Of a stretch of 45,379 nt of DNA, positions 2,283 to 43,067 are shown piece by piece. Source of the stretch: a virus. Location of the stretch: the IMG/VR virus record IMGVR_UViG_3300006736_000013, positions 1 through 45,379 of that record, one strand, 5' to 3'. Numbering within the stretch: the first letter of the stretch is position 1; each line of letters begins with the position of its first letter. Both the position numbers and the translations under genes were made by a program. The notes under the pieces were generated by a model, which was given only the letters and a program-made list of their open reading frames with translations, did no database searches and was not told where the DNA came from.

Positions 2283-2509
2283 TGGCAAGGGTAAAGGGCA
2301 AAAATGTGGCAAATATAGTCTATCTATTGGTAGTTATTATGCTGTTTATGAGCCTAGTGGCGGTAGTGCTGACCTCATCCTTACCCAGGAAGCGCTCACC
2401 CTTTATAGGGCCGCCACCCCCACCCCCCGGGGGGGGGATCAGCGGTCTTTTTATATATGTTTGGTCACCAATTCTTTACGAAAAATTAAAAAGCGAGCAT
2501 AAATCATGA
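2282..2509 (+). CDS. Small membrane protein with a C6/G9 tract
   Basis: A 75-residue ORF with one clear transmembrane helix at about residues 11-31 (VYLLVVIMLFMSLVAVVLTSS), then a basic turn, a run of six prolines and three glycines, and a short tail. The poly-Pro/Gly part is encoded by a homopolymer-rich stretch (2417-2437) that also looks like a terminator stem. An overlapping frame from a GTG at 2269 is open over the same span, so I am not certain which frame, if either, is used. Start choice rests on the TAATG overlap with the mini-ORF. It could be a lysis accessory (spanin- or pinholin-like) protein; no family is recognised. Confidence 0.4.
   Translation: MARVKGKNVANIVYLLVVIMLFMSLVAVVLTSSLPRKRSPFIGPPPPPPGGGISGLFIYVWSPILYEKLKSEHKS
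2411..2453 (+). terminator. GC-rich hairpin followed by T-run, inside small ORF
   Basis: CCGC (2411-2414) pairs with GCGG (2442-2445). Between them the C5 and C6 runs face a G9 run (2429-2437). The stem is followed by TCTTTTTA, the layout of an intrinsic terminator acting rightward. If active it would attenuate transcription from the terS side into the morphogenesis arm. The position inside an ORF makes either the ORF or the terminator doubtful. Confidence 0.35.
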
Positions 2510-3201
2510 GCCTGCCAACATGGTACAGGCCCTATACAGACGTAGCGAAAGCCAAAAGAGAGGCCAAAGAGAGATATATGTGGCAAACTAGTTGTATGGT
2601 GTGTGGGGCATGCCCTGTTTCCATTGACACAATTGATTGGGATAATGCATTATGTGACCGGCATTTACGGTTACAAAAAGAGGATTCTGAAAAAATGGAA
2701 GATAGATTAGATAGAAACATAATTGCCTCTAATATTTTAGATAGATTAGATAGATTAGATAGATTAAATAGCATGATTGCCTTGACCTTATTAAATAGAT
2801 TACAGCAACATCTGCATTATTTCTTAGCAGTCCCAGTTCTCATTATGTTAGCGCTGTTTATTTATGATATTTATTTTTTCTTCAGTACAGGAGGGTCCCC
2901 ACCCCTTAAATTTAACGTGCCAAAATGGGGAGGACTTGTCTGTCTCGCCTTTATTTGGTGCAGCATCCCCGTTAATTATATTTTATACCGCTTTCAGATG
3001 CGTGAAATAAAGAAGAAATACAACAAAGAATTTGATGATATTAAGGAGCAACAACAAGATGTTAACAAAACCAAAATTAAAAGAAACGACCCGCTTGATC
3101 ATAGCAAAGACAGCGATCCAGATAGTAGTGAGGCTACTCCAGTTAGCCGAGATCGCATCGCCCCGGACACACAGGGGGATAAAGATGAAGACAGTGTGTG
3201 A
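2506..3201 (+). CDS. Two-TM membrane protein with Cys cluster and DRL repeats
   Basis: A 231-residue protein. A possible metal-binding cluster lies near the N-terminus (Cys30, Cys33, Cys36, Cys50, His53). It is followed by a helix with repeated Asp-Arg-Leu triplets (67-69 and 79-87) encoded by a 9-bp tandem repeat (about 2738-2768). Two transmembrane helices follow (about 105-127 and 142-163) and then a highly charged tail. The topology suggests a cytoplasmic N-terminus and a charged C-terminus on the same side. It starts four bases before the previous ORF ends. Not recognised; a phage membrane-associated protein of the early packaging region. Confidence 0.6.
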   Translation: MSLPTWYRPYTDVAKAKREAKERYMWQTSCMVCGACPVSIDTIDWDNALCDRHLRLQKEDSEKMEDRLDRNIIASNILDRLDRLDRLNSMIALTLLNRLQQHLHYFLAVPVLIMLALFIYDIYFFFSTGGSPPLKFNVPKWGGLVCLAFIWCSIPVNYILYRFQMREIKKKYNKEFDDIKEQQQDVNKTKIKRNDPLDHSKDSDPDSSEATPVSRDRIAPDTQGDKDEDSV

Positions 3202-3235
3202 GGACCTATTGAGATCAAGGGAGCTGAAATGGTAA
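3059..3235 (+). CDS. Possible overlapping 58-residue ORF
   Basis: An ATG at 3059 follows AAGGAG (3043-3048) at ideal spacing and opens a 58-codon frame that lies out of frame inside the tail of the two-TM protein gene. Its TAA (3233-3235) overlaps the ATG of the next gene as ATGGTAA, the usual sign of translational coupling. The product is basic and partly amphipathic (LKETTRLIIAKTAIQIVVRL). It may instead be a chance frame under a low-complexity charged tail. No family is recognised. Confidence 0.25.
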   Translation: MLTKPKLKETTRLIIAKTAIQIVVRLLQLAEIASPRTHRGIKMKTVCEDLLRSRELKW

Positions 3236-3423: not shown

Positions 3424-4166
3424 TGGCAAAAAAGAGGACATTGGTAATTGGCGATATCCATGGTGCGAATCTAGCACTGGAGCAAGCCCTTGACCGTTCC
3501 GGGTTTGATAGAGCGAAGGACCATCTTATTATTCTGGGTGATATTGTTGATGGCTGGCCGGAAACGCGGCAGTGCATCGACACGGTCCTGGGCATAAAGA
3601 ACAGGACATTTATTCTAGGCAACCACGACAAATGGGCACTTGACTGGATGAAGACAGGTATCGCTAAAAAGATATGGACTACCCAGGGCGGGAAGGCGAC
3701 GATAGAATCGTATGGCGCGAAAATATATGATGTGGTGCCCCCCACGAAGGTACCTGAATCACATATCGAGCTTTTAGACACTGCGCTTTTTTACCATTTA
3801 GACAAAAAGGACAGGCTCTTTGTCCATGGTGGGATTGAACCGGAGGGGGTGCGTCCGTTGGATTTAGGTGAGCATACCACTTATGATTTCCTCTGGGACC
3901 GCACCTTAATTGAAAGAGCGATGAGGGCGTGGGAATATGATAAAGAAGGCAAAATGCCACAATTCACAAAATACAAAGAGGTTTATCTAGGGCACACGAC
4001 AACATGGCATCTATCCAAAGTCCCACTTAACATAGGCGAGATCTGGGCAATGGACCAGGGCGCTGGCTGGGAAGGTAAGCTATCGATTATGGATATAGAC
4101 AGTAAAGAGTTCTGGCAGTCTGACAAGGTTTCAGAGCTATACCCCGAGGCGGTGGGTAGACGGTAA
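3423..4166 (+). CDS. PPP-family metallophosphoesterase (Ser/Thr phosphatase-like)
   Basis: 247 residues with the full signature of calcineurin-like PPP phosphatases: GDIHG (10-14), GDIVDGWPE (39-47, in place of GDxxDRG), GNHD (66-69), HGG (135-137) and a late GHT motif. These Asp, Asn and His residues bind the two metal ions. Phage relatives (lambda phosphatase type) remove phosphate from Ser/Thr/Tyr of proteins; related cellular enzymes cut diadenosine tetraphosphate. The change of DRG to DGW in motif II differs from classical protein phosphatases, so the substrate is open. It sits between terS and terL and probably alters host signalling or takeover. Family call secure, substrate not. Confidence 0.85.
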   Translation: MAKKRTLVIGDIHGANLALEQALDRSGFDRAKDHLIILGDIVDGWPETRQCIDTVLGIKNRTFILGNHDKWALDWMKTGIAKKIWTTQGGKATIESYGAKIYDVVPPTKVPESHIELLDTALFYHLDKKDRLFVHGGIEPEGVRPLDLGEHTTYDFLWDRTLIERAMRAWEYDKEGKMPQFTKYKEVYLGHTTTWHLSKVPLNIGEIWAMDQGAGWEGKLSIMDIDSKEFWQSDKVSELYPEAVGRR

Positions 4167-4179
4167 TAGATAGATAGTA

Positions 4180-4226
4180 GGCGTTTTGGTCGACGCCGTA
4201 GTTAGTTAGAAGAAAAAGGAGTCTGG
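4180..4226 (+). promoter_or_regulatory. UUUGGUCG hairpin plus GGAGUCUGG ribosome binding site, copy A
   Basis: The stem GGCGU (4180-4184)/ACGCC (4193-4197) closes the 8-base loop UUUGGUCG (4185-4192). Twenty bases on comes GGAGUCUGG (4218-4226), the ribosome binding site of the 13-codon leader before the large terminase. The same loop and same extended ribosome binding site occur at two other loci with unrelated stem sequences. This suggests an RNA-binding protein or antisense RNA that reads the loop and controls initiation. Confidence 0.7.
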
Positions 4227-4228
4227 GA

Positions 4229-4270
4229 ATGATAGGTATGGAAATAGAATGGGTGCGCGTTAAAAAATAA
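4229..4270 (+). CDS. Thirteen-residue leader peptide of terL
   Basis: The GGAGUCUGG ribosome binding site leads to an ATG at 4229 that encodes MIGMEIEWVRVKK. It stops at TAA 4268-4270, which overlaps the terL ATG as TAATG. The terL start has only an A-rich run just upstream and no Shine-Dalgarno, so terL translation probably depends on ribosomes finishing this leader. The leader sits immediately downstream of the conserved hairpin, so regulation of the leader would pass on to terL. Confidence 0.55.
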   Translation: MIGMEIEWVRVKK

Positions 4271-5940
4271 TGCCCCCAAAAAAAGCGAAACCTAAAAAAA
4301 GAAAGGTAATAAAAAAGCCTATCCCCACCCCTCCCCTATCGGGAGAAATAGCGGCAGGGGATGGGGTAATAGAAAAGAAAAAGCTGACAAAAGCCCAAGC
4401 TGAGGCGTTACTACGAGTAAAGCAGGCTGAGCTCGACGCGCTTAATGAGAAACGGAAATTATATGATGCGGAGGAGAAAAAATACGATGCGATTATCAAT
4501 AAATATGAAGAGGATAATAAAATTCTCTTTTTTAATCATCCTGATAAGGGGCATCTGGGCCCCTATGGGACGTGGAAGAACAACCATGCACAAGATCTCA
4601 TTATTAAGGCGGTTGAGGAAGCAAAGTATAAGTTAATCTCCTTAACTGGCGATAATCAGATCGGGAAGACCTTGATGGAGACGATCATGGTCATCGCATT
4701 CATGCGTGGCCATTGGCCATGGGAAGACCCGAAGATGGTTGGCCAGCATTTATGGGACAAGTTCGGCTTTAAGCCCCCTATCCATATCCGTTGGATTGGT
4801 GCTGGTTGGGAAGATCATATTAAGAGGACGTTGCTTAATGAGGGCTTGGACGTGTTCTGGCCCAAGTCATGGCCCGTCAAGAAGAAAAAGAATAACCAGG
4901 GCGTTGACTATCATTGGGTAGATGAGACAACTGGGAGCTACTTGTATCTGATGAGTTCTGACCAGGACGTTGTAAAGTTTGCAGGTAGTAAATGCGACCT
5001 CGTTATTTTCGATGAGCCATTCCCTAAAACGATATGGGATGAGAACGTTGCAAGGATCATCGCGAAAGGTGGATTTATTTTCATAGGGGCGACAATCCAT
5101 GAGGAGGATGACCTATGGCTATACGATGAGATCCTAGATATGGAGATTGACTCAGCAACCAAGAAAGAGAAGATTTTCCATTTAGAGGCAGCAGCCAAGG
5201 TCAATATGGGGCATGGAACAATTAAAAAGAATGTAGCTGACGCGGCCTTCCTGATGACGAAAGAGGGTCGTGCCAAGCGTCTCGAGGGCAGTAAACTCAA
5301 GTCATTTGGCCGTGTTATTAGATATGATGAACTTAATCTCACTGAGAGGATTGATATTCCGCCACACTGGATGCATATCGCAGCTGTTGATATCGGGGTA
5401 TCCAAGCCACATGACGTATTGTTTATGGGTTTTGACGAGATGGAGCGACGCTACTTCACGTTTGAATTTGAGGTCAATGGCAATGGCAATGATATTGGGG
5501 AGAAGATCATTGACACAATGCACGCGCATAAGTTGCGTTTACAGGAAGTTATTATTGACCCATTAGCAAAAGCGGCCCAATTCCACGAAGATTCCATTTA
5601 TTGGCAACTTGACATGTATCTCAGGAAATTTGGTATTAGGCTATCGTGCGGCTCAAAGCGTAAAGAAGATGGGGTTATCCAGCTCAATAAACTCTTTAAA
5701 GGGCGTATTGACAAATTCCCTGATTTATTAATATTTGACGATTTATATAAAACTAAAGCACAATTGAAGATACGGTTTGATAAAGAGGGTCGGATCCCAA
5801 AAAAGAACGATGATCAGTTTGAGAATGGGTATCGATTAGCGTTATGTCAGATTGATTATTATGATCCAGTAGACGAAGATGCTGTTAGAGAGATGAATAC
5901 AGGTGGGAGTATATTGAGCGGAACAGATGCGGGATATTAA
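4270..5940 (+). CDS. terL: Terminase large subunit (packaging ATPase-nuclease)
   Basis: 556 residues. A basic, Pro/Lys-rich N-terminal extension (1-40) and a coiled-coil helix (40-85) precede the ATPase. Walker A is GDNQIGKT (127-134), a variant of the usual GxxxxGK[ST] loop. Walker B with catalytic Glu is CDLVIFDEP (242-250), and a motif III-like GATIHEEDD follows. The C-terminal RNase H-like nuclease shows Asp374 (AAVDIGVSKPHD), Asp430 (VIIDPLAKA) and late acidic residues near 514-537. It drives DNA into the prohead and cuts concatemers. The start is set by the TAATG overlap with the leader peptide; hairpin copy A lies upstream. Confidence 0.9.
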   Translation: MPPKKAKPKKRKVIKKPIPTPPLSGEIAAGDGVIEKKKLTKAQAEALLRVKQAELDALNEKRKLYDAEEKKYDAIINKYEEDNKILFFNHPDKGHLGPYGTWKNNHAQDLIIKAVEEAKYKLISLTGDNQIGKTLMETIMVIAFMRGHWPWEDPKMVGQHLWDKFGFKPPIHIRWIGAGWEDHIKRTLLNEGLDVFWPKSWPVKKKKNNQGVDYHWVDETTGSYLYLMSSDQDVVKFAGSKCDLVIFDEPFPKTIWDENVARIIAKGGFIFIGATIHEEDDLWLYDEILDMEIDSATKKEKIFHLEAAAKVNMGHGTIKKNVADAAFLMTKEGRAKRLEGSKLKSFGRVIRYDELNLTERIDIPPHWMHIAAVDIGVSKPHDVLFMGFDEMERRYFTFEFEVNGNGNDIGEKIIDTMHAHKLRLQEVIIDPLAKAAQFHEDSIYWQLDMYLRKFGIRLSCGSKRKEDGVIQLNKLFKGRIDKFPDLLIFDDLYKTKAQLKIRFDKEGRIPKKNDDQFENGYRLALCQIDYYDPVDEDAVREMNTGGSILSGTDAGY

Positions 5941-5960
5941 ATTTTAGAGTGAAATTGAAT

Positions 5961-6008
5961 TATCTACACACCTTTTGGTCGGGGTGTATAGATAAAAAAG
6001 GAGTCTGG
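5961..6008 (+). promoter_or_regulatory. UUUGGUCG hairpin plus GGAGUCUGG ribosome binding site, copy B
   Basis: A long stem (5961-5972 with 5983-5994, 12 pairs with one mismatch, plus a U-G closing pair at 5973/5982) carries the loop UUUGGUCG (5974-5981). GGAGUCUGG follows at 6000-6008, and the ATG of the holin-like gene at 6013 comes 4 bases later. Here the stem ends only 5 bases before the ribosome binding site, so a protein bound to the loop, or stabilisation of the stem, could block ribosome entry directly. Confidence 0.7.
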
Positions 6009-6012
6009 AAAA

Positions 6013-6498
6013 ATGACAAATATTTTAGGGTTAGTAGGGGATATAGTAGGCTCAGTTGTGACGCCTATTATGGACGTGTTTCAGACAGATGCTAAGACAC
6101 GTTTAATTAATGTTGAGGGCGCTCATAAGGTGGCACAGGCTAAAATTGATTTAAAGGTCGCCAAGCTGAGCGCCCAAGTTGATCGGGAGAAGCGTATCTC
6201 CGAGAGCGATTTGTCCTATGACCTGCAGGTCATAGGGAATAGGAAAGAAGGGACGATTATTGGCAACGTCATCATCCTTGGCTTTGTGTTAATTATGGCG
6301 CTTACATTTCTACCATCAACTCAGTCATCGATGAGTATTGGCTGGGCGGCGCTTAGTGTGGCCCCATGGTGGTTTGAATTTGGGATAGTTGGCATTCTTG
6401 TATCTACGCTTGGGCTTAAAGAGGTCTTTCGTATGTTCCTTGGTATGGCGGCTACGAAAATGACGAAAAAGAAACCATTAATTAAAGGGGAGCAGTAA
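6013..6498 (+). CDS. Holin-like membrane protein (3TM type, putative)
   Basis: 161 residues: an N-terminal hydrophobic or amphipathic helix (ILGLVGDIVGSVVTPIMDV), a long charged helix (about 28-72), then two strong transmembrane helices (about 80-100 and 119-139) and a basic tail. This is the layout of holins of the gene-transfer-agent 3TM type, often found next to terminase or portal genes. Holins form the membrane lesions that time lysis. Translation is probably controlled by hairpin copy B directly upstream. A structural membrane protein is the alternative. Confidence 0.5.
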   Translation: MTNILGLVGDIVGSVVTPIMDVFQTDAKTRLINVEGAHKVAQAKIDLKVAKLSAQVDREKRISESDLSYDLQVIGNRKEGTIIGNVIILGFVLIMALTFLPSTQSSMSIGWAALSVAPWWFEFGIVGILVSTLGLKEVFRMFLGMAATKMTKKKPLIKGEQ

Positions 6499-28777: not shown

Positions 28778-29040
28778 TTGCCATAAATTTGACATAAACT
28801 CCAAAAAAAACTATTATATCTCTTACATTTTATGGCGCTAACTTTGCATTATTTTGGGCCTAGCTTTGTTTATGGCGGTCTCTTTGCGTCTTTTAGTAAC
28901 CCATGGTAAGGATGAGGTCAGCGGTTCAATTCCGCTCGGGAGCTCCATAGAATTCGAGGCTAAAATAGACAAGAATGCCTTGGGATAAAGAATAAAAGAA
29001 AGAATGATTTGCTATATTTTTGCCATAAATTTGTTGACAT
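28778..29040. other. attP: tRNA-Thr(GGU) 3'-half core with GCCATAAA arm sites
   Basis: 28904-28947 reads as the 3' half of a tRNA from the anticodon loop (TGGTAA), 3' anticodon stem GGATG, variable AGGTC, T-arm AGCGG-TTCAATT-CCGCT, acceptor CGGGAGC, then T and CCA. The upstream bases do not complete a tRNA, so it is a fragment. Four GCCATAAA words flank it: direct at 28780-28787 and 29022-29029, inverted at 28829-28836 and 28869-28876. This is the layout of arm-type integrase sites around a core. Integration would replace and restore the 3' end of the host tRNA-Thr gene. This entry covers most of the 323-base gap between the lysis genes and the integrase. Confidence 0.75.
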
Positions 29041-30335: not shown

Positions 30336-30518
30336 GTGGGTGAGGAAATGGACTGGAAATGTAGACATGTTATTGGTGTTAGATATGATTATGAAGTCGC
30401 AACAATGGATAATATTACCAATAGAAAACAGGTAAATGAAGAGTGGTTCTATTGCCCAATTTGCGGGATCGATTTAGATGAAGCTAAAGTATTTGATTCA
30501 TTAGAAAAAAATAACTAA
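30336..30518 (+). CDS. Small zinc-ribbon-like protein
   Basis: 60 residues from a GTG with GGAGGT 9-14 bases upstream. Cys and His spaced as WKCRHVIG ... WFYCPICGIDL suggest one zinc site (Cys10/His12 region with CPIC near 45-48). Small treble-clef or zinc-ribbon proteins of this kind are frequent phage accessory genes without known function. The last codons (AAT AAC TAA) belong to the repeated intergenic element, as in other cassettes here. Confidence 0.5.
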   Translation: MGEEMDWKCRHVIGVRYDYEVATMDNITNRKQVNEEWFYCPICGIDLDEAKVFDSLEKNN

Positions 30519-30556
30519 ATATAATGAGCGTTATATTGAGTTAATTAGGAAAGGAG
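30512..30556 (+). repeat. Cassette-boundary repeat, copy 1
   Basis: Starts with the stop region of the upstream gene (TAACTAAATATAATGAGCG), continues TTATATTGAGTTAATTAGG and ends in AAAGGAG, the ribosome binding site of the next ORF. Copies 2 to 4 follow at 30734, 31109 and 31312, and a partial copy lies at 32933. Stop, spacer and ribosome binding site are thus conserved as one unit. Confidence 0.8.
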
Positions 30557-30584: not shown

Positions 30585-30736
30585 GACTATTGGAATATTT
30601 AATATTTGGGCATATCCATGAATGGGAGCTCATAAGAAGAGTGCGTTTAGGTGACGCAGATTTAGACATGAGAGGTACGCGAAATACCCTTCAGTGCAAA
30701 AAGTGTGGGAACATTAAAAAGAAGGATTTAATATAA
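30578..30736 (+). CDS. Small treble-clef-like protein
   Basis: 52 residues: MLRLLEYLIFGHIHEWELIR ... TLQCKKCGNIKKKDLI. An N-terminal H-x-HEW with a C-terminal CKKCG is a zinc-binding layout seen in many small prophage proteins. GGAGGAGA just upstream or re-initiation after the six-codon leader can start it. It is bounded on both sides by the cassette repeats. Confidence 0.5.
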   Translation: MLRLLEYLIFGHIHEWELIRRVRLGDADLDMRGTRNTLQCKKCGNIKKKDLI

Positions 30737-30772
30737 CTAAACATAATAAGCGTTATATTGAGTAGAAAGGAG
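30734..30772 (+). repeat. Cassette-boundary repeat, copy 2
   Basis: TAACTAAACATAATAAGCG followed by TTATATTGAGTAGAAAGGAG. It overlaps the stop codon of the upstream 52-residue gene and provides the ribosome binding site for the gene at 30785. From AATAAGCG onward it is identical to copy 3. Confidence 0.8.
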
Positions 30773-30784
30773 TGAGAAAATAGC

Positions 30785-31111
30785 ATGAGTGAGACAAGAC
30801 AAGCAGAAGAGACGAAAATTTTTAAATTAATTTTAAATCCAATGGCAGGAAGATGTGAGCATGAAAACGTTATTGCTATATCTGACGATATGGAAAAGCT
30901 TAAAAGTTTTTACATTGGAGAATTTTCAGAAAAACCGTATCAACATGAGGTAAACGATAGAATATGGAATAAGGTTTTTAAGAAGGGATCTATACTGGAA
31001 TGGTATAACGATAAAAGAGGTAATTATTATGCAACCGGACCTTTTGAAGAAGAATGGGTGAATACTGAATCGATTGAAAGTCTAAAGGATCGCATTTATT
31101 TTGTAGAATAA
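30785..31111 (+). CDS. Hypothetical accessory protein
   Basis: 108 residues, mixed alpha/beta and acidic: IFKLILNPMAGRCEHENVIA, DMEKLKSFYIGEFSEKPYQ, then GNYYATGPFEEEWVNTESIE. The sequence pattern (strand, helix, then a strand with an aromatic EW) is reminiscent of small phage proteins of unknown function. Its ribosome binding site comes from repeat copy 2, and its stop codon opens copy 3. No catalytic motif is seen. Confidence 0.5.
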   Translation: MSETRQAEETKIFKLILNPMAGRCEHENVIAISDDMEKLKSFYIGEFSEKPYQHEVNDRIWNKVFKKGSILEWYNDKRGNYYATGPFEEEWVNTESIESLKDRIYFVE

Positions 31112-31147
31112 TGTCGCACAATAAGCGTTATATTGAGTAGAAAGGAG
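31109..31147 (+). repeat. Cassette-boundary repeat, copy 3
   Basis: TAATGTCGCACAATAAGCG then TTATATTGAGTAGAAAGGAG. The first half diverges from copies 1, 2 and 4, while the second half is identical to copy 2. It contains the stop of the 108-residue gene and the ribosome binding site of the next gene. Confidence 0.8.
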
Positions 31148-31153
31148 ACGGTC

Positions 31154-31318
31154 GTGGGTGAGGCATATGAATTAGTACAACAACAAGCAGAGGATGAAGG
31201 GCTTTGGTTTAGGGCTGAATATGCTTCTGAAGACTATTTACAAAGAGCTTTGAGAGAGTTGCATGATTCCGTAGAGAGAGATTTTAATAGCAAGGAGACG
31301 GATCGTATAAATAACTAA
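31154..31318 (+). CDS. Small hypothetical protein
   Basis: 54 residues from a GTG 6 bases after AAAGGAG: VGEAYELVQQQAEDEGLWFR, then AEYASEDYLQRALRELHDSV. Helical and acidic. A longer frame from a TTG inside the repeat is possible but less likely, since it would begin before the ribosome binding site. It ends in AAT AAC TAA, the same tail codons as the first cassette. No family recognised. Confidence 0.5.
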   Translation: MGEAYELVQQQAEDEGLWFRAEYASEDYLQRALRELHDSVERDFNSKETDRINN

Positions 31319-31354
31319 ACATAAGCTGTCATTATATTGAGTTGATTAGAAAGG
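31312..31354 (+). repeat. Cassette-boundary repeat, copy 4
   Basis: TAACTAAACATAAGCTGTCA then TTATATTGAGTTGATTAGAAAGG. The centre (GCTGTCA) differs from the other copies, but the short ATAA ... TTAT arms around it are kept. It links the stop of the 54-residue gene to the start of the 55-residue gene. Confidence 0.75.
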
Positions 31355-31561: not shown

Positions 31562-32938
31562 ATGATTAGAAATAAACAATTAAAAAAATACAGAGTGCTA
31601 TCCTTATTTTCTGGAGGAATGGGACTCGATATAGGATTAGAGTCTACAGGACGATTTGAGATAGTAGCTTGTATAGAAAAAGAACACGTTTTCTGTGAAA
31701 CAATCAGAAGTAATATTCAAGCAGGTCGTTTATCTAAAGACCTTAAAGTTATAGAGGGTGATATTTCTAAATTAAATCCAGATACAATCTTAAAAGAAAA
31801 TGGCATTGAACCAAATACAATAGATGTTGTTATTGGTGGCCCGCCTTGTCAATCTTTCAGTACTGCGGGAAATCGGGGGACTACTCAAGATCCAAGAGGA
31901 ACTTTAATATGGGATTTTTTAAGATTTATTCAATATATTAAACCCAAAATATTTTTAATGGAAAACGTCCGGGGTTTATTATCAGCAGCTTTGAAGCATA
32001 GGCCGATTGCTGATCGCCCAAATAATGGAGGGTCCGCTTTAGTGGAAGATGAACAACCGGGTTCCGTTGTCCGGTTGTTTTCTAAAGATTTAAGTAACCT
32101 TAATGGAATTGGTTACAACCTAAATATATTTGAGGTGAATTCAGTTAATTATGGAGCCCCACAGATTAGAGAAAGAGTTTTATTCATAGGAAATTGCTAC
32201 GGACGAGAAATAAAATTTCCTGAGCCAACACATTGTAATCCTGTTGGCTTAAATGAAAACTCGACACAACTTAATCTAATAAACGAAAGTTCAGAGAAAC
32301 TTCCATGGAAAACACTTGGTGATGCGATTCAATCATTAATTGATAAAGATCCATTAATTTTAGATTTTAGTCCAAGAAAAAAAGGATTTTTAAAAATGGT
32401 GCCCCCCGGTTCTAATTGGCGAAGTTTGCCAGACGAAATACAAAAAGAATCAATGGGTAAAGCTTGGTATGCTAAGGGAGGGCGTTCTGGCTGGTGGAGA
32501 AGATTATCATTTGATTTGCCTGCTCCAACTTTAGTTACAATGCCAAACCATGCAAGCACTTCACTTTGTCACCCAATTGAGACACGTGCTTTATCCATCA
32601 AGGAGTATGCAAGAATTCAAGAATTTCCAGATGAATGGGAATTTTGTGGAACCATTTCTAAAAAATATGCTCAAGTAGGAAATGCTGTTCCAACTCGATT
32701 AGGAAAAGTTGCTGGCAATGTAATTGCATGTGAGCTTGATGAAATTTTAGTTTCCAAAAGGATGCCTTTGAAAGAAGCTACTTGCGAACCAAAGATTATT
32801 TATTTGCAGTCTCATATAAGAACCCGTCAGTGGTTTGAAAAAGGGAAAGCTCAAATAAGGAAATCGGGCACAAAAAATTGTGATAGCCAACAAAAACTGT
32901 CAAAAACACTATTGAACCTGTATTATTTTAAAAACTAA
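31562..32938 (+). CDS. C5-cytosine DNA methyltransferase
   Basis: 458 residues with the m5C methyltransferase motifs in order: I (VLSLFSGGMGLDIGLE, 12-27), IV with catalytic Cys96 (GGPPCQSF, 92-99), VI (ENV, 134-136), VIII (QIRERVLFIG) and IX-X (YARIQEFPDEWEF, then YAQVGNAVP). A target-recognition region lies between VIII and IX. It transfers methyl from SAM to cytosine, probably guarding phage DNA against host restriction; no partner endonuclease is seen. Base composition is clearly more AT-rich than the flanking replication genes, suggesting recent gain. It ends in the partial fifth cassette repeat. The ribosome binding site is weak. Confidence 0.9.
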   Translation: MIRNKQLKKYRVLSLFSGGMGLDIGLESTGRFEIVACIEKEHVFCETIRSNIQAGRLSKDLKVIEGDISKLNPDTILKENGIEPNTIDVVIGGPPCQSFSTAGNRGTTQDPRGTLIWDFLRFIQYIKPKIFLMENVRGLLSAALKHRPIADRPNNGGSALVEDEQPGSVVRLFSKDLSNLNGIGYNLNIFEVNSVNYGAPQIRERVLFIGNCYGREIKFPEPTHCNPVGLNENSTQLNLINESSEKLPWKTLGDAIQSLIDKDPLILDFSPRKKGFLKMVPPGSNWRSLPDEIQKESMGKAWYAKGGRSGWWRRLSFDLPAPTLVTMPNHASTSLCHPIETRALSIKEYARIQEFPDEWEFCGTISKKYAQVGNAVPTRLGKVAGNVIACELDEILVSKRMPLKEATCEPKIIYLQSHIRTRQWFEKGKAQIRKSGTKNCDSQQKLSKTLLNLYYFKN

Positions 32939-32950
32939 ACATAACATGCA
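32933..32950 (+). repeat. Partial cassette-boundary repeat, copy 5
   Basis: AACTAAACATAACATGCA at the end of the methyltransferase gene matches the first half of copies 2 and 4, including the stop codon. The second half (TTATATTGAG and ribosome binding site) is absent. This marks the right end of the cassette block. Confidence 0.6.
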
Positions 32951-32969
32951 TTAGATTTAGTCATCGCTA

Positions 32970-32996
32970 TTGACAGTATCATCATGACAATATAAG
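32970..32996 (+). promoter_or_regulatory. Sigma70-like promoter upstream of the helicase
   Basis: TTGACA (32970-32975), a short 15-bp spacer and TATAAG (32991-32996). Transcription would begin near 33003, so the RNA would open almost directly with hairpin copy C (33011-33032). The short spacer lowers confidence. Confidence 0.4.
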
Positions 32997-33010: not shown

Positions 33011-33058
33011 TAGTTACTTTGGTCGGTAACTAAAATTCTAGAGAAAAAGGGAGTCTGG
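33011..33058 (+). promoter_or_regulatory. UUUGGUCG hairpin plus GGAGUCUGG ribosome binding site, copy C
   Basis: The perfect stem UAGUUAC (33011-33017)/GUAACUA (33026-33032) closes UUUGGUCG (33018-33025). GGAGUCUGG lies at 33050-33058, before the helicase start. This copy is about 27 kb from the other two and next to a predicted promoter. That argues that the element is a maintained regulatory unit and not a local duplication. Confidence 0.75.
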
Positions 33059-33064
33059 AAAAAT

Positions 33065-34648
33065 ATGCATGTAATGGCAAAGCCATCTGTCCTGCTGTCC
33101 AATGACGGCGAAAAAATAGTGATTTCACGCACAACATATGAGGACCGTCACCTAATGAAGGAGATCGGCGCCACATGGAATAGTCGGGTGCGTGCCTGGT
33201 TTATGCCAGCCTCTCATATCGCATACAAAGCATGTGTTGATGCAGGTCTAGAGGTCGGTGCAGGGCTAGTCTCTCATTTCCATATGTGTGGGTCCCCGCG
33301 CATACTATCTTTCGATGAATGCGCACTTAACTTCAAAACTAAGCCCTATCTACACCAGGAAAAATGGGTTGAGCTTTTCATGCAGCAAAACCAGGCCTTT
33401 TTCCTTGGGGATGTTGGCACCGGCAAAACTAAAGCAGCGATTGATTCAGCATGGGCAATGGATGCGTCACGGATCTTAATTGTGACACCTGCATGTGTCA
33501 TGCAGAATTTTGCTAGGGAAGTTAAGACCCACTCCGATTATGATGTTGTGGTCGTTGATGGGGCAAGGGCAAAGAAGGTAAAGACGCTCTCAGCTAAGCT
33601 ACATAATGTATATATCGTGAGCTATGACTCATTAGCAAGCCTACAGCAGGACCTAGTTGATTTTGATTTGATCATTTTTGACGAGATCCATTATCTAAAA
33701 ACTCATACAAGTCAACGTAGTAAAGCGGCCTACGATATCGCACAGAAGATCCCATGCCGTATAGGGATGACAGGCACCTTAATTGCAAACGGGATACAGG
33801 ATGCCTTTGGCCCCTACAAGGTCATCGACCCCAGCTTCTTTGGCACAAGCTACCATCTATTCAGGCAGCGCTACCTTATCATGGGCGGCTATGATGCAGG
33901 CCATGGCCCAACACAGATCGTTGGGTACAAGAACCAGGATGAATTTAAAACAATCATAGCCCGTAACAGCCTAAGATTTGCACTTAATGAAGTGACAGAT
34001 ATGCCCGAAGAAGTTGAGATCCCACTCTATGTTGAGCTCGATAGCCAAACAAAGACTATTTATAAAAATATTTTTAAGGAGATAGATGACACTGAGTATG
34101 CCCCGACGAGCACAATGGACAAAATAATGAAGTTGCAGCGTGTCACATCAGGCAAGTTACTCACACACCATGAGTCAGGTGAGAAGCTAGACGTACTCTT
34201 GAACCATCTAGACGAACTACAAGAACACAAGGTCATTATATGGTGTCGTTTCACAGACACTATCGCACACGTTTCTAAAGAGCTAATCTTCCAGAATATC
34301 CCACATGTTATATACAATGGATCAGCGACCGACAAAGAGATCGTCGCCAAGTTCAATGCCTCCGGCACATACGAAGATAAGCCCTATGTCATGATCGCCC
34401 AAATACAAATGGGTGTTGGCTGGGAAGTGCCGAGCGCCAAGTACGCCATATTCTATGAGATGGACTACTCACGCATCAATTATGTCCAGGCAAAGGGCCG
34501 GAACCGTAGGTTAAAAGGCTCAGAGACGGGCGCCGTTGTCTACATGTACCTACTAGCGAAAGACACAATTGATGAGGGGATATACAAGACCCTACAGACA
34601 AAAGACTTTACTGCGAAAGAAGCCCTCGAATATGTGGGCGGGTATTAG
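33065..34648 (+). CDS. SNF2-like DEAD/DEAH-box DNA helicase
   Basis: 527 residues. The N-terminal 70 residues (MKEIGATWNSRVRAWFMP) resemble the small HARP-like domain found in front of SMARCAL1-type ATPases. Helicase motifs are I GDVGTGKT (115-122), II DEIH (206-209), III GMTGTLIANG, a C-terminal lobe with HKVIIWCRFTDTIAHVS, and VI QAKGRNRRLKG. It translocates on DNA, probably for fork remodelling or recombination during replication. Start could be ATG 33065 or in-frame ATG 33074. The element upstream (hairpin copy C) suggests regulated translation. Confidence 0.85.
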   Translation: MHVMAKPSVLLSNDGEKIVISRTTYEDRHLMKEIGATWNSRVRAWFMPASHIAYKACVDAGLEVGAGLVSHFHMCGSPRILSFDECALNFKTKPYLHQEKWVELFMQQNQAFFLGDVGTGKTKAAIDSAWAMDASRILIVTPACVMQNFAREVKTHSDYDVVVVDGARAKKVKTLSAKLHNVYIVSYDSLASLQQDLVDFDLIIFDEIHYLKTHTSQRSKAAYDIAQKIPCRIGMTGTLIANGIQDAFGPYKVIDPSFFGTSYHLFRQRYLIMGGYDAGHGPTQIVGYKNQDEFKTIIARNSLRFALNEVTDMPEEVEIPLYVELDSQTKTIYKNIFKEIDDTEYAPTSTMDKIMKLQRVTSGKLLTHHESGEKLDVLLNHLDELQEHKVIIWCRFTDTIAHVSKELIFQNIPHVIYNGSATDKEIVAKFNASGTYEDKPYVMIAQIQMGVGWEVPSAKYAIFYEMDYSRINYVQAKGRNRRLKGSETGAVVYMYLLAKDTIDEGIYKTLQTKDFTAKEALEYVGGY

Positions 34649-41632: not shown

Positions 41633-42268
41633 TCAGCCGGGGTGGGGACCCCCCTGTATAGCTCCTTCAATGATAGAGCTAGCGTACTTTATGATCTTGC
41701 CTTGCATCTCTTTTTTATCCTCAGCAGCAGCACTAGAATCGAAAATAGCAGAAGCAGCCCTAGCAGAAGCCCAAGAAGAAGAAGAAGCAGACCTAGCAGC
41801 AGCCCAAGAAGCAGCAGCCCTAGCAGCAGCAGCCGCCCAAGCAGCCCAAGCAGCCCAAGCAGCAGCAGCAGAAGCAGCCCAAGAAGCCTCATCAGAAGCC
41901 GCCCAAGAAGCCTCATCAGCAGAAGAAGCAGCAGCAGCAGCAGCAGAAGAAGCAGAAGCCAATTCCACTTTAGAAATCGTACCCTGTTGAAAGTCCTTCG
42001 CGGCTTGAATAGCCTTCCGTGGCCGATCATCCTCGGGGTACTCTTTCTCGAAGATGGGCAGCACTTGTTCAGCACAGTAGATAGCAAGCTTTACGTTATC
42101 CTCTGTCTCTACTACCCGTGTGAACAGCCAGATAGCCGAATCAAAATGCTCATACTCATTTGCTTTCGCCATAAACGTCGCCAAGTCAGGTTCGTTCATC
42201 TCTGACCAGTACTTATAGAGTTCGTCACTTGCGCCTATCTCTCTTAGCTTTTCTTTTGTTACTTTCAT
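41633..42268 (-). CDS. Ala/Ser/Trp-repeat protein, Imm5-like N-terminus (paralogue 1)
   Basis: 211 residues. The N-terminal 100 (MKVTKEKLREIGASDELYKY ... DDRPRKAIQAAKDFQQG, with DDRPRKAI at 80-87) carries the DDRPRKAI-type helix of proteins annotated as Imm5-like putative immunity proteins, which also have Ala-rich helical tails. Residues 103-185 are almost only Ala, Ser and Trp (DEASWAASDEASWAAS, AAWAAWAAWAAAA). A short conserved tail (EDKKEMQGKIIKYASSIIE) follows, then a divergent end. It follows the paralogue at 42273 in one leftward operon. AAGGAAA is the ribosome binding site. Target and role unknown. Confidence 0.6.
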   Translation of the reverse strand: MKVTKEKLREIGASDELYKYWSEMNEPDLATFMAKANEYEHFDSAIWLFTRVVETEDNVKLAIYCAEQVLPIFEKEYPEDDRPRKAIQAAKDFQQGTISKVELASASSAAAAAASSADEASWAASDEASWAASAAAAWAAWAAWAAAAARAAASWAAARSASSSSWASARAASAIFDSSAAAEDKKEMQGKIIKYASSIIEGAIQGGPHPG

Positions 42269-42272
42269 AGTC

Positions 42273-43067
42273 TTATTTCCTTATGTCACTTTCAATGATA
42301 GAGCTAGCGTACTTTATGATCTTGCCTTGCATCTCTTTTTTATCCTCAGCAGCAGCCCAAGAAGAAGAAGAAGCAGCCCAAGCAGCATCAGAAGAAGCAG
42401 AAGAAGAAGCAGCAGCCCAAGCAGCATCAGAAGAAGCAGAAATAGCAGAAGCAGCCCTAGCAGCCCTAGCAGCATCAGAAGAAGAAGCAGAAGCAGCCCA
42501 AGCAGCCCAAGCAGCCCAAGCACCCCTAGAAGCGAAAATAGCAGTAGCCCTAGCAGCAGCCCAAGAAGAAGAAGAAGCAGCCCTAGCAGCAGCAGCAGCA
42601 GCCCAAGCAGCCCAAGCAGCATCAGAAGAAGCAGAAGAAGAAGCAGCAGCCCAAGCAGCATCAGAAGAAGCAGAAGAAGAAGCAGCAGCCCAAGCAGCAT
42701 CAGAAGAAGCAGAAGAAGAAGCAGCAGAAGCAGAAGAAGTAGCCCTAGCAGCCGACTCCAATTCCTCTTTAGAAATCGTACCCTGTTGAAAGTCCTTCGC
42801 GGCTTGAATAGCCTTCCGTGGCCGATCATCCTCGGGGTACTCTTTCTCAAAGATGGGCAGCACTTGTTCAGCACAGTAGATAGCGAACGTTGCGGCATCC
42901 TCTGTCTCTACTACCCGTGTGAACAGCCAGATAGCCGAATCAAAATGCTCATCCTCATTCGCTTTCGCCATAAACGTCGCCAAGTCAGGTTCGTTCATCT
43001 CTGACCAGTACTTGTAGAGTTCGTCACTTGCGCCTATCTCTCTTATCTTTTTTTTTGTTACTTTCAT
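42273..43067 (-). CDS. Ala/Ser/Trp-repeat protein, Imm5-like N-terminus (paralogue 2)
   Basis: 264 residues. The N-terminal 100 differs from paralogue 1 at only about ten positions. The central part (about 105-243) holds a 13-residue repeat, ASSSASSDAAWAA, three times in tandem and twice more near the C-terminal side, with linker runs such as GAWAAWAAWAASASSSD. The tail EDKKEMQGKIIKYASSIIE is shared with paralogue 1. Helical period and Ala content point to an extended helical rod or solenoid. Its TAA lies within the ribosome binding site of paralogue 1, so both are co-translated. Confidence 0.6.
   Translation of the reverse strand: MKVTKKKIREIGASDELYKYWSEMNEPDLATFMAKANEDEHFDSAIWLFTRVVETEDAATFAIYCAEQVLPIFEKEYPEDDRPRKAIQAAKDFQQGTISKEELESAARATSSASAASSSASSDAAWAAASSSASSDAAWAAASSSASSDAAWAAWAAAAAARAASSSSWAAARATAIFASRGAWAAWAAWAASASSSDAARAARAASAISASSDAAWAAASSSASSDAAWAASSSSWAAAEDKKEMQGKIIKYASSIIESDIRK
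42384..42735. repeat. 39-bp coding repeats (GCA/GAA/GCC-rich)
   Basis: A 39-base unit beginning GCATCAGAAGAAGCAGAAGA occurs at 42619, 42658 and 42697 in near-perfect tandem, with two further copies near 42384 and 42423. It encodes the 13-residue ASSSASSDAAWAA block on the leftward strand. The simple trinucleotide composition leaves several other frames open on both strands; these are shadows. Copy number is likely to vary by slippage or unequal crossing over. Confidence 0.8.

Follow-up and report, generated by a model that had tools for sequence, protein, structure and literature searches.

The genome of an uncultured tailed phage of bacteria carries a genuine three-copy element in which a hairpin with a fixed loop and a rebuilt stem is followed by a fixed ribosome-binding block. 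We consider it on balance probable that this element is a cis-acting translational operator, used thrice in one temperate phage and read by one trans-acting factor.

Three leaders share a hairpin loop and a ribosome-binding block

The window analysed here is the whole virus record of 45,379 bases, with a G+C content of 42%. The 8-nt loop UUUGGUCG is common to three copies of the element, at 4178–4226, 5960–6008 and 33011–33058, and the stems that hold it are unrelated in sequence yet paired. On the DNA level the loop reads TTTGGTCG and occupies 4185–4192, 5974–5981 and 33018–33025, while the ribosome binding site GGAGTCTGG occupies 4218–4226, 6000–6008 and 33050–33058, all on the + strand. A sequence-only reading of this DNA had reported an identical loop and ribosome binding site at three copies, and direct reading of the letters bears this out, coordinates included. 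It had also described the ribosome binding site as extended. The site is indeed conserved in all three copies, but the conserved stretch is a 20-nt block, TAGANRAAAARGGAGTCTGG, of which only the last nine bases had been noted; its length is constant across the three copies and it stands before the start codon. Alignment of the copies shows the loop and the 20-nt block to be invariant or nearly so, while the stems have been rebuilt. Every copy lies on the coding strand, in an intergenic gap, immediately upstream of the ribosome binding site and start codon. In copies 1, 2 and 3, respectively, the gap from loop to block is 14, 7 and 13 nt and the gap from block to ATG is 2, 4 and 6 nt, and the hairpins end ~17–32 nt upstream of the ATG. 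In thermodynamic folding, each of the three shows a hexaloop, UUGGUC, with a U.G pair closing it.

The hairpin of copy 1, TA-GGCGT (TTTGGTCG) ACGCC-G-TA by direct reading, spans 4178–4199 on the + strand, with the last A of its extension at 4200; its GGCGT/ACGCC stem is extended by UA/UA beyond a bulged G. Alone it folds with −8.7 kcal/mol, and the covariance model built from the three copies (R1) scores 80.2 bits over 4160–4233. Copy 2 has the longest stem, UUAUCUA.C.ACACCU/GGGUGU.A.UAGAUAA, with 13 pairs, one C.A mismatch and a U.G pair adjoining the loop (TTATCTA-C-ACACCT (TTTGGTCG) GGGTGT-A-TAGATAA, 5960–5995, + strand); the hairpin alone reaches −13.7 kcal/mol (z −4.3) and scores 76.7 bits with R1. 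Copy 3, TAGTTAC (TTTGGTCG) GTAACTA at 33011–33032 on the + strand, forms the stem UAGUUAC/GUAACUA, with −7.3 kcal/mol (z −3.7) for the hairpin alone and an R1 score of 83.1 bits. The corresponding blocks, which form a direct repeat family, align with one another and likewise lie on the + strand, are TAGAAGAAAAAGGAGTCTGG at 4207–4226, TAGATAAAAAAGGAGTCTGG at 5989–6008 and TAGAGAAAAAGGGAGTCTGG at 33039–33058.

The hairpins themselves leave the Shine-Dalgarno sequence free, and the leaders taken whole show no remarkable folding save in copy 2. There, two foldings compete, since the long stem uses the TAGA of the block for its outer 3′ arm. A possible second hairpin, TAGA/UCUG(G), surrounds the Shine-Dalgarno sequence with an 11-nt loop and has 5, 4 and 7 pairs in the three copies; it is weak (0 to −4.8 kcal/mol), and four of five of its pairs never vary.

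Upstream of copy 3, our own script found a promoter-like TTGACA-N15-TATAAG at 32970–32996 on the + strand, with 11 of 12 matches and a short spacer. The box ends 14 nt before the hairpin and would put the hairpin near the mRNA 5′ end. The same script gave a weaker match (8/12) for copy 2 and no comparable site at the matching place of copy 1. These features bear on a reading in which the element is an mRNA 5′-end stabiliser or processing signal, the hairpin guarding a primary or processed 5′ end from decay and the block serving as a strong initiation site, with no dedicated regulator. The promoter-like matches at copies 3 and 2 agree with it, as does the placing of the hairpins a short way before the ribosome binding site, in gene gaps. 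We nevertheless regard a stabiliser as unlikely, given that protection needs no fixed loop, yet all eight loop bases are invariant, and that copy 1 offers no good promoter-like sequence.

The target genes and their phage

The three genes downstream had been named as terL, reached through a leader, a holin-like protein and an SNF2-like helicase, and ORF reading together with homology scans upheld these assignments. Copy 1 precedes a 13-codon leader ORF, MIGMEIEWVRVKK, at 4229–4270 on the + strand (direct reading; ATG at 4229), whose stop shares one base with the terL start in the TAATG at 4268–4272. The terminase large subunit-like gene follows at 4270–5940 on the + strand. Its product contains a Walker-type GDNQIGKT, matches no Pfam or PHROG family and has no match in the phage collection. 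The gene lies directly before the holin and portal genes, and an ORF 71% identical to it precedes the homologous portal gene on another contig (L051); on position and motif, we call it a putative terL. Copy 2 precedes a holin-like gene for 161 aa (6013–6498, + strand; phrog_2524), the product of which shows 38% identity, with 89% coverage, to gp23 of Pseudoalteromonas phage ACA1, a protein annotated as holin with an HHpred match to GTA_holin_3TM. Copy 3 precedes the gene for an SNF2-type DNA helicase of 527 aa (33065–34648, + strand), with Pfam SNF2-rel_dom and Helicase_C above cut-off and phrog_62 at E 1.6e-91.

The source is a tailed phage of bacteria. Pfam/PHROG-type scans of the ORFs recognised genes for an integrase, a DNA methyltransferase, the SNF2 helicase, a primase and a Mu gpT-like capsid protein. 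A tRNA 3′ end, GGTAAGGATGAGGTCAGCGGTTCAATTCCGCTCGGGAGCTCCA, with tRNA-Thr as its best named match, lies at 28900–28947, directly upstream of the integrase gene; the phage is therefore very likely temperate, with this tRNA-Thr-like 3′ end its likely attP.

The window also holds two further repeat families. The repeat AACTAAAYATAA...TTATATTGAGTT occurs at 30508–30541, 30730–30763, 31105–31138, ~31311–31345 and 32928–32961. It is palindromic in its best copies, with conserved arms and a variable centre, and its RNA folds are weak except in the first copy. It precedes four small genes that have AGAAAGG-type ribosome binding sites and stands once upstream of copy 3; it has the look of an early-regulon DNA operator. 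Long triplet-type repeat runs (CAGCAGCCCAAG...) lie in 41650–42850, where they are duplicated at ~625 and 800 nt spacing and run through ORFs that overlap on the two strands. The one at 42273–43067 on the − strand matches Imm5-like immunity proteins.

Stem pairing exceeds chance

The loop sequence TTTGGTCG occurs six times in the window, and a stem is present only at the three sites that have the downstream block. The other three show 0–2 pairs and lack such a ribosome binding site; elsewhere in the window, TTTGGTCG and GGAGTCTGG occur with neither the partner nor a stem. At least three hairpins with a stem of five and one common 8-nt loop arose in 3 of 4000 dinucleotide shuffles, a test that counted hairpins and a common loop and did not require the shared downstream block. 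Across the window, the frequency of a stem around an 8-nt loop is 0.0081 for at least 5 pairs, 0.0031 for at least 6 and 0.0013 for at least 7; multiplied, these give 3.4e-8, and the shared block comes on top of this. When the three copies are aligned, 97% of the structure cells are paired, versus 27–45% with the partner strand slid, and five of seven stem pairs have changed on both sides. The pairing of the stems is thus well beyond chance, in a comparison of three paralogous copies that is not a phylogenetic test.

Chance similarity or a recent functionless duplication could be argued from the three copies in a single genome. The shuffles and stem frequencies argue otherwise, and a plain duplication would have carried the stem along, whereas the stems here are unrelated; this reading strikes us as highly improbable. 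The sequence-only reading had seen selection on RNA structure in the copies, and this is sustained by the conserved loop, by the differing yet paired stems and by the common strand and place before the ribosome binding site. The U.G pair beside the loop of copy 2 and the G-bulge extension of copy 1 also suit RNA better than a DNA palindrome. The element is structured and probably functional, and we infer that its function lies at the RNA level.

Occurrence in other viral sequences

The covariance model of the three copies finds no further match within the window. Outside it, the exact pattern of loop plus site has 47 matches in IMG/VR, none with a stem of at least 5 pairs, and we judge these 47 to be chance. 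The 20-nt block has 0 matches in IMG/VR, the pattern AAAAAG(N)GAGTCTGG gave no hairpin with the loop among the matches listed there, and a loosened loop plus TAGA block gave at least 118 matches, with no convincing element among those listed. Over ~2.4 Mb of listed loci the best R1 score is 22.9 bits, versus 77–83 for the real copies. The further copies for which the sequence-only reading had proposed a covariance-model scan of related phages were thus not found among the IMG/VR loci covered. Rfam has no match to the window and gives no more than sub-threshold chance matches at the copies, and membership of an Rfam family is rejected, nothing having exceeded a gathering threshold.

Relatives of the phage were sought by TerL, helicase and portal. 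The phage collection has none at the DNA level or by TerL, the plasmids none by TerL, and protein searches of genome_contigs none. One useful contig emerged, of 11 kb (L051/L054), with TerL 71% and portal 59% identical and a gene order that is largely shared. Upstream of its terL there is a different small ORF and no element; between terL and portal it has neither the element nor a holin-like gene. The contig does not reach the helicase region. Where the window has the element and the holin-like gene (5941–6498), L051 has a DNA methyltransferase-like gene (2385–3221), and copy 2 and its holin gene seem to form one unit in a cargo position open to exchange. Since L051 does not carry it at terL, the element has not been inherited as a fixed companion of terL. 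Retention of the element in relatives, on which the sequence-only reading had placed weight, is therefore not seen in the sole syntenic relative, although this is weak evidence from one 11-kb fragment with other neighbouring genes. Within the collections searched, the element is, as far as seen, private to this phage. What counts against an operator is that there are three copies only, all of them paralogous and in one genome, with no independent homologue in the searched collections, and that terL of the sole syntenic relative is not preceded by the element. The absence of a recognised RNA-binding protein candidate among the ORFs scanned, the unobstructed Shine-Dalgarno sequence and, outside copy 2, the unremarkable folding of the leaders count against it too.

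Comparison with start-associated repeats and other known elements

That no such element had been described proved too strong a claim, since blocks at ribosome binding sites with an upstream inverted repeat are known from the SAS/ESAS type (PMC3203893, PMC7302621), with RNA hairpins unsupported in Cluster K. In Cluster K mycobacteriophages these repeats consist of a super-conserved block at the ribosome binding site and an inverted repeat upstream of it (PMC3203893), and Cluster EF Microbacterium phages have a similar start-associated repeat pair (PMC7302621). Like the element here, they have several copies per genome at unrelated genes, place a conserved Shine-Dalgarno block within a few nt of the start codon, have an upstream repeat (inverted in Cluster K) and are private to a phage group. 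They differ in sequence. The Cluster K pair consists of a GGGATAGGAGCCC block and 17-bp imperfect inverted repeats and the Cluster EF motif is GGGAAAGGACCCC, whereas the block here, TAGANRAAAARGGAGTCTGG, has no sequence similarity to the 13-bp consensus GGGATAGGAGCCC or to GGGAAAGGACCCC. They also differ in what is conserved: in ESAS the arms are conserved and the spacer varies, while here the arms are unrelated but paired and the loop is invariant. Because these defining sequence features are absent, the element, judged by its letters, is not a member of SAS/ESAS; it would act at the same place, and SAS/ESAS is the closest documented design.

A reading of the same kind would make the block a site for a translation factor and the upstream repeat a promoter or DNA operator rather than an RNA structure. 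It draws on the super-conserved Shine-Dalgarno block, the 3′ part of which is unpaired with the anti-Shine-Dalgarno tail, and on the inverted repeat upstream and the unrelated genes (PMC3203893), and on the later report that ESAS contain putative SigA-like promoters (PMC11373665). The element here has no internal promoter, in that no promoter hexamers stand at a fixed place inside it. In ESAS, the arms keep their sequence and were not considered to fold into RNA hairpins, the reverse of the free, paired arms and conserved spacer found here. This reading thus seems to us quite unlikely.

Three other identities were rejected. No terminator signature is present, so the element does not qualify as an intrinsic terminator. 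A DNA hairpin promoter of the N4 type is set aside because no ORF exceeds 942 aa, the largest in the window, which is too small for a giant virion RNA polymerase; the N4 enzyme has ~3,500 aa. The copy 2 stem, with its T.G and C.A mismatch, also speaks against such a promoter. Copy 3 has a weak likeness to the L31-Coriobacteria leader (RF03128), from GGUCGG and AAAAAGGGAG, with a cmscan score of 20.9 bits that is below the gathering score of 33 and in another register, and copies 1 and 2 are unmatched.

The block might instead pair directly with rRNA. The stretch AGGAGUCUGGA is the 11-nt complement of E. coli 16S segment 333–343 (UCCAGACUCCU), and such pairing would recruit the 30S subunit through a second site. 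The complementary stretches lie at 4217–4226, 5999–6009 and 33050–33059, so that all three copies have an antisense match of 10–11 nt, versus at most 8 nt at 35 other gene starts of the window. E. coli 16S has four CUCC sites, and a 5-nt extension matching one of them, given the GGAG anchor, has p ~0.4%. The match is post hoc, however, and was made with E. coli 16S, which may differ from that of the host, and it leaves the hairpin and loop unexplained; for the complement of the loop, E. coli rRNA has no exact match. The target segment is highly conserved and, in mature subunits, helical (h13/h14). A comparable proposal for the T7 gene 10 enhancer, also involving 16S pairing, was not supported by rRNA mutation (PMC8748333). 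We rate direct rRNA pairing as very unlikely.

A probable translational operator read by its loop

In the T4 gene 43 operator, a hairpin ~40 bases before the start is accompanied by a sequence that overlaps the ribosome binding site; conservation covers the upper part of the hairpin with its loop, whose bases are important for binding (PMC3014915). The element here resembles the T4/RB69 gene 43 operator in having a conserved-loop hairpin tens of nt upstream of the start, beside the ribosome binding site. That operator is autogenous, serves one gene and has a UAAC/CAAC-type loop, whereas here the loop is UUUGGUCG and the genes are three and unlinked; the ORFs scanned included no recognisable gp43-like or replicative DNA polymerase. 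T4 RegA/RegB-type regulons are alike in that a single factor acts on many ribosome binding sites within a phage, with RegA using sites of variable sequence and without RNA structure (PMC3014915). Among the ORFs scanned, neither a RegA or RegB homologue nor any RNA-binding protein candidate was recognised.

The hallmark of an RNA operator read by its loop, as in T4 gene 43, is what the copies show: the loop is fixed, the stems are free, and both stand on the coding strand close to the ribosome binding site. Past GGAG, further bases are conserved that do not serve anti-Shine-Dalgarno pairing, which points to a second contact. The loop-read signature and this second contact together lead us to favour one trans-acting RNA-binding factor. 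We infer that recognition is by the loop and class the element as a phage translational operator or start-associated element.

We propose that the leader of each target mRNA would fold a hairpin presenting a U.G-closed UUGGUC hexaloop, and that the 20-nt block, single-stranded or weakly paired, would start 7–14 nt past the loop and carry the Shine-Dalgarno sequence and five further conserved bases ahead of the start codon. Loop and block would be read together by a single factor acting in trans, most likely an RNA-binding protein encoded by the phage or by its host. The stem would merely hold the loop in place, which would leave its sequence free. Binding of the factor would cover or expose the ribosome binding site, and translation of terL (via its coupled leader) and of the holin-like and helicase genes would thereby be set together. 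By itself, the hairpin stands too far upstream to obstruct the ribosome; a bound protein would need to reach over the block or displace the weak second helix.

It is a tentative idea, and one we would not yet lean on, that a single putative factor reads the U.G-closed UUGGUC hexaloop and the extended block so that replication, the packaging motor and lysis are placed on one post-transcriptional switch. The parts of the element separate cleanly, into a fixed loop, a free stem and a fixed block, which gives direct predictions for a binding factor and makes the element a small, well-defined RNA with which such a factor may be fished out. Phage start-associated repeats have been known since 2011 and their mechanism is still unsolved. 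If the three genes do share one switch, the timing of replication, packaging and lysis would be coordinated post-transcriptionally in a temperate phage.
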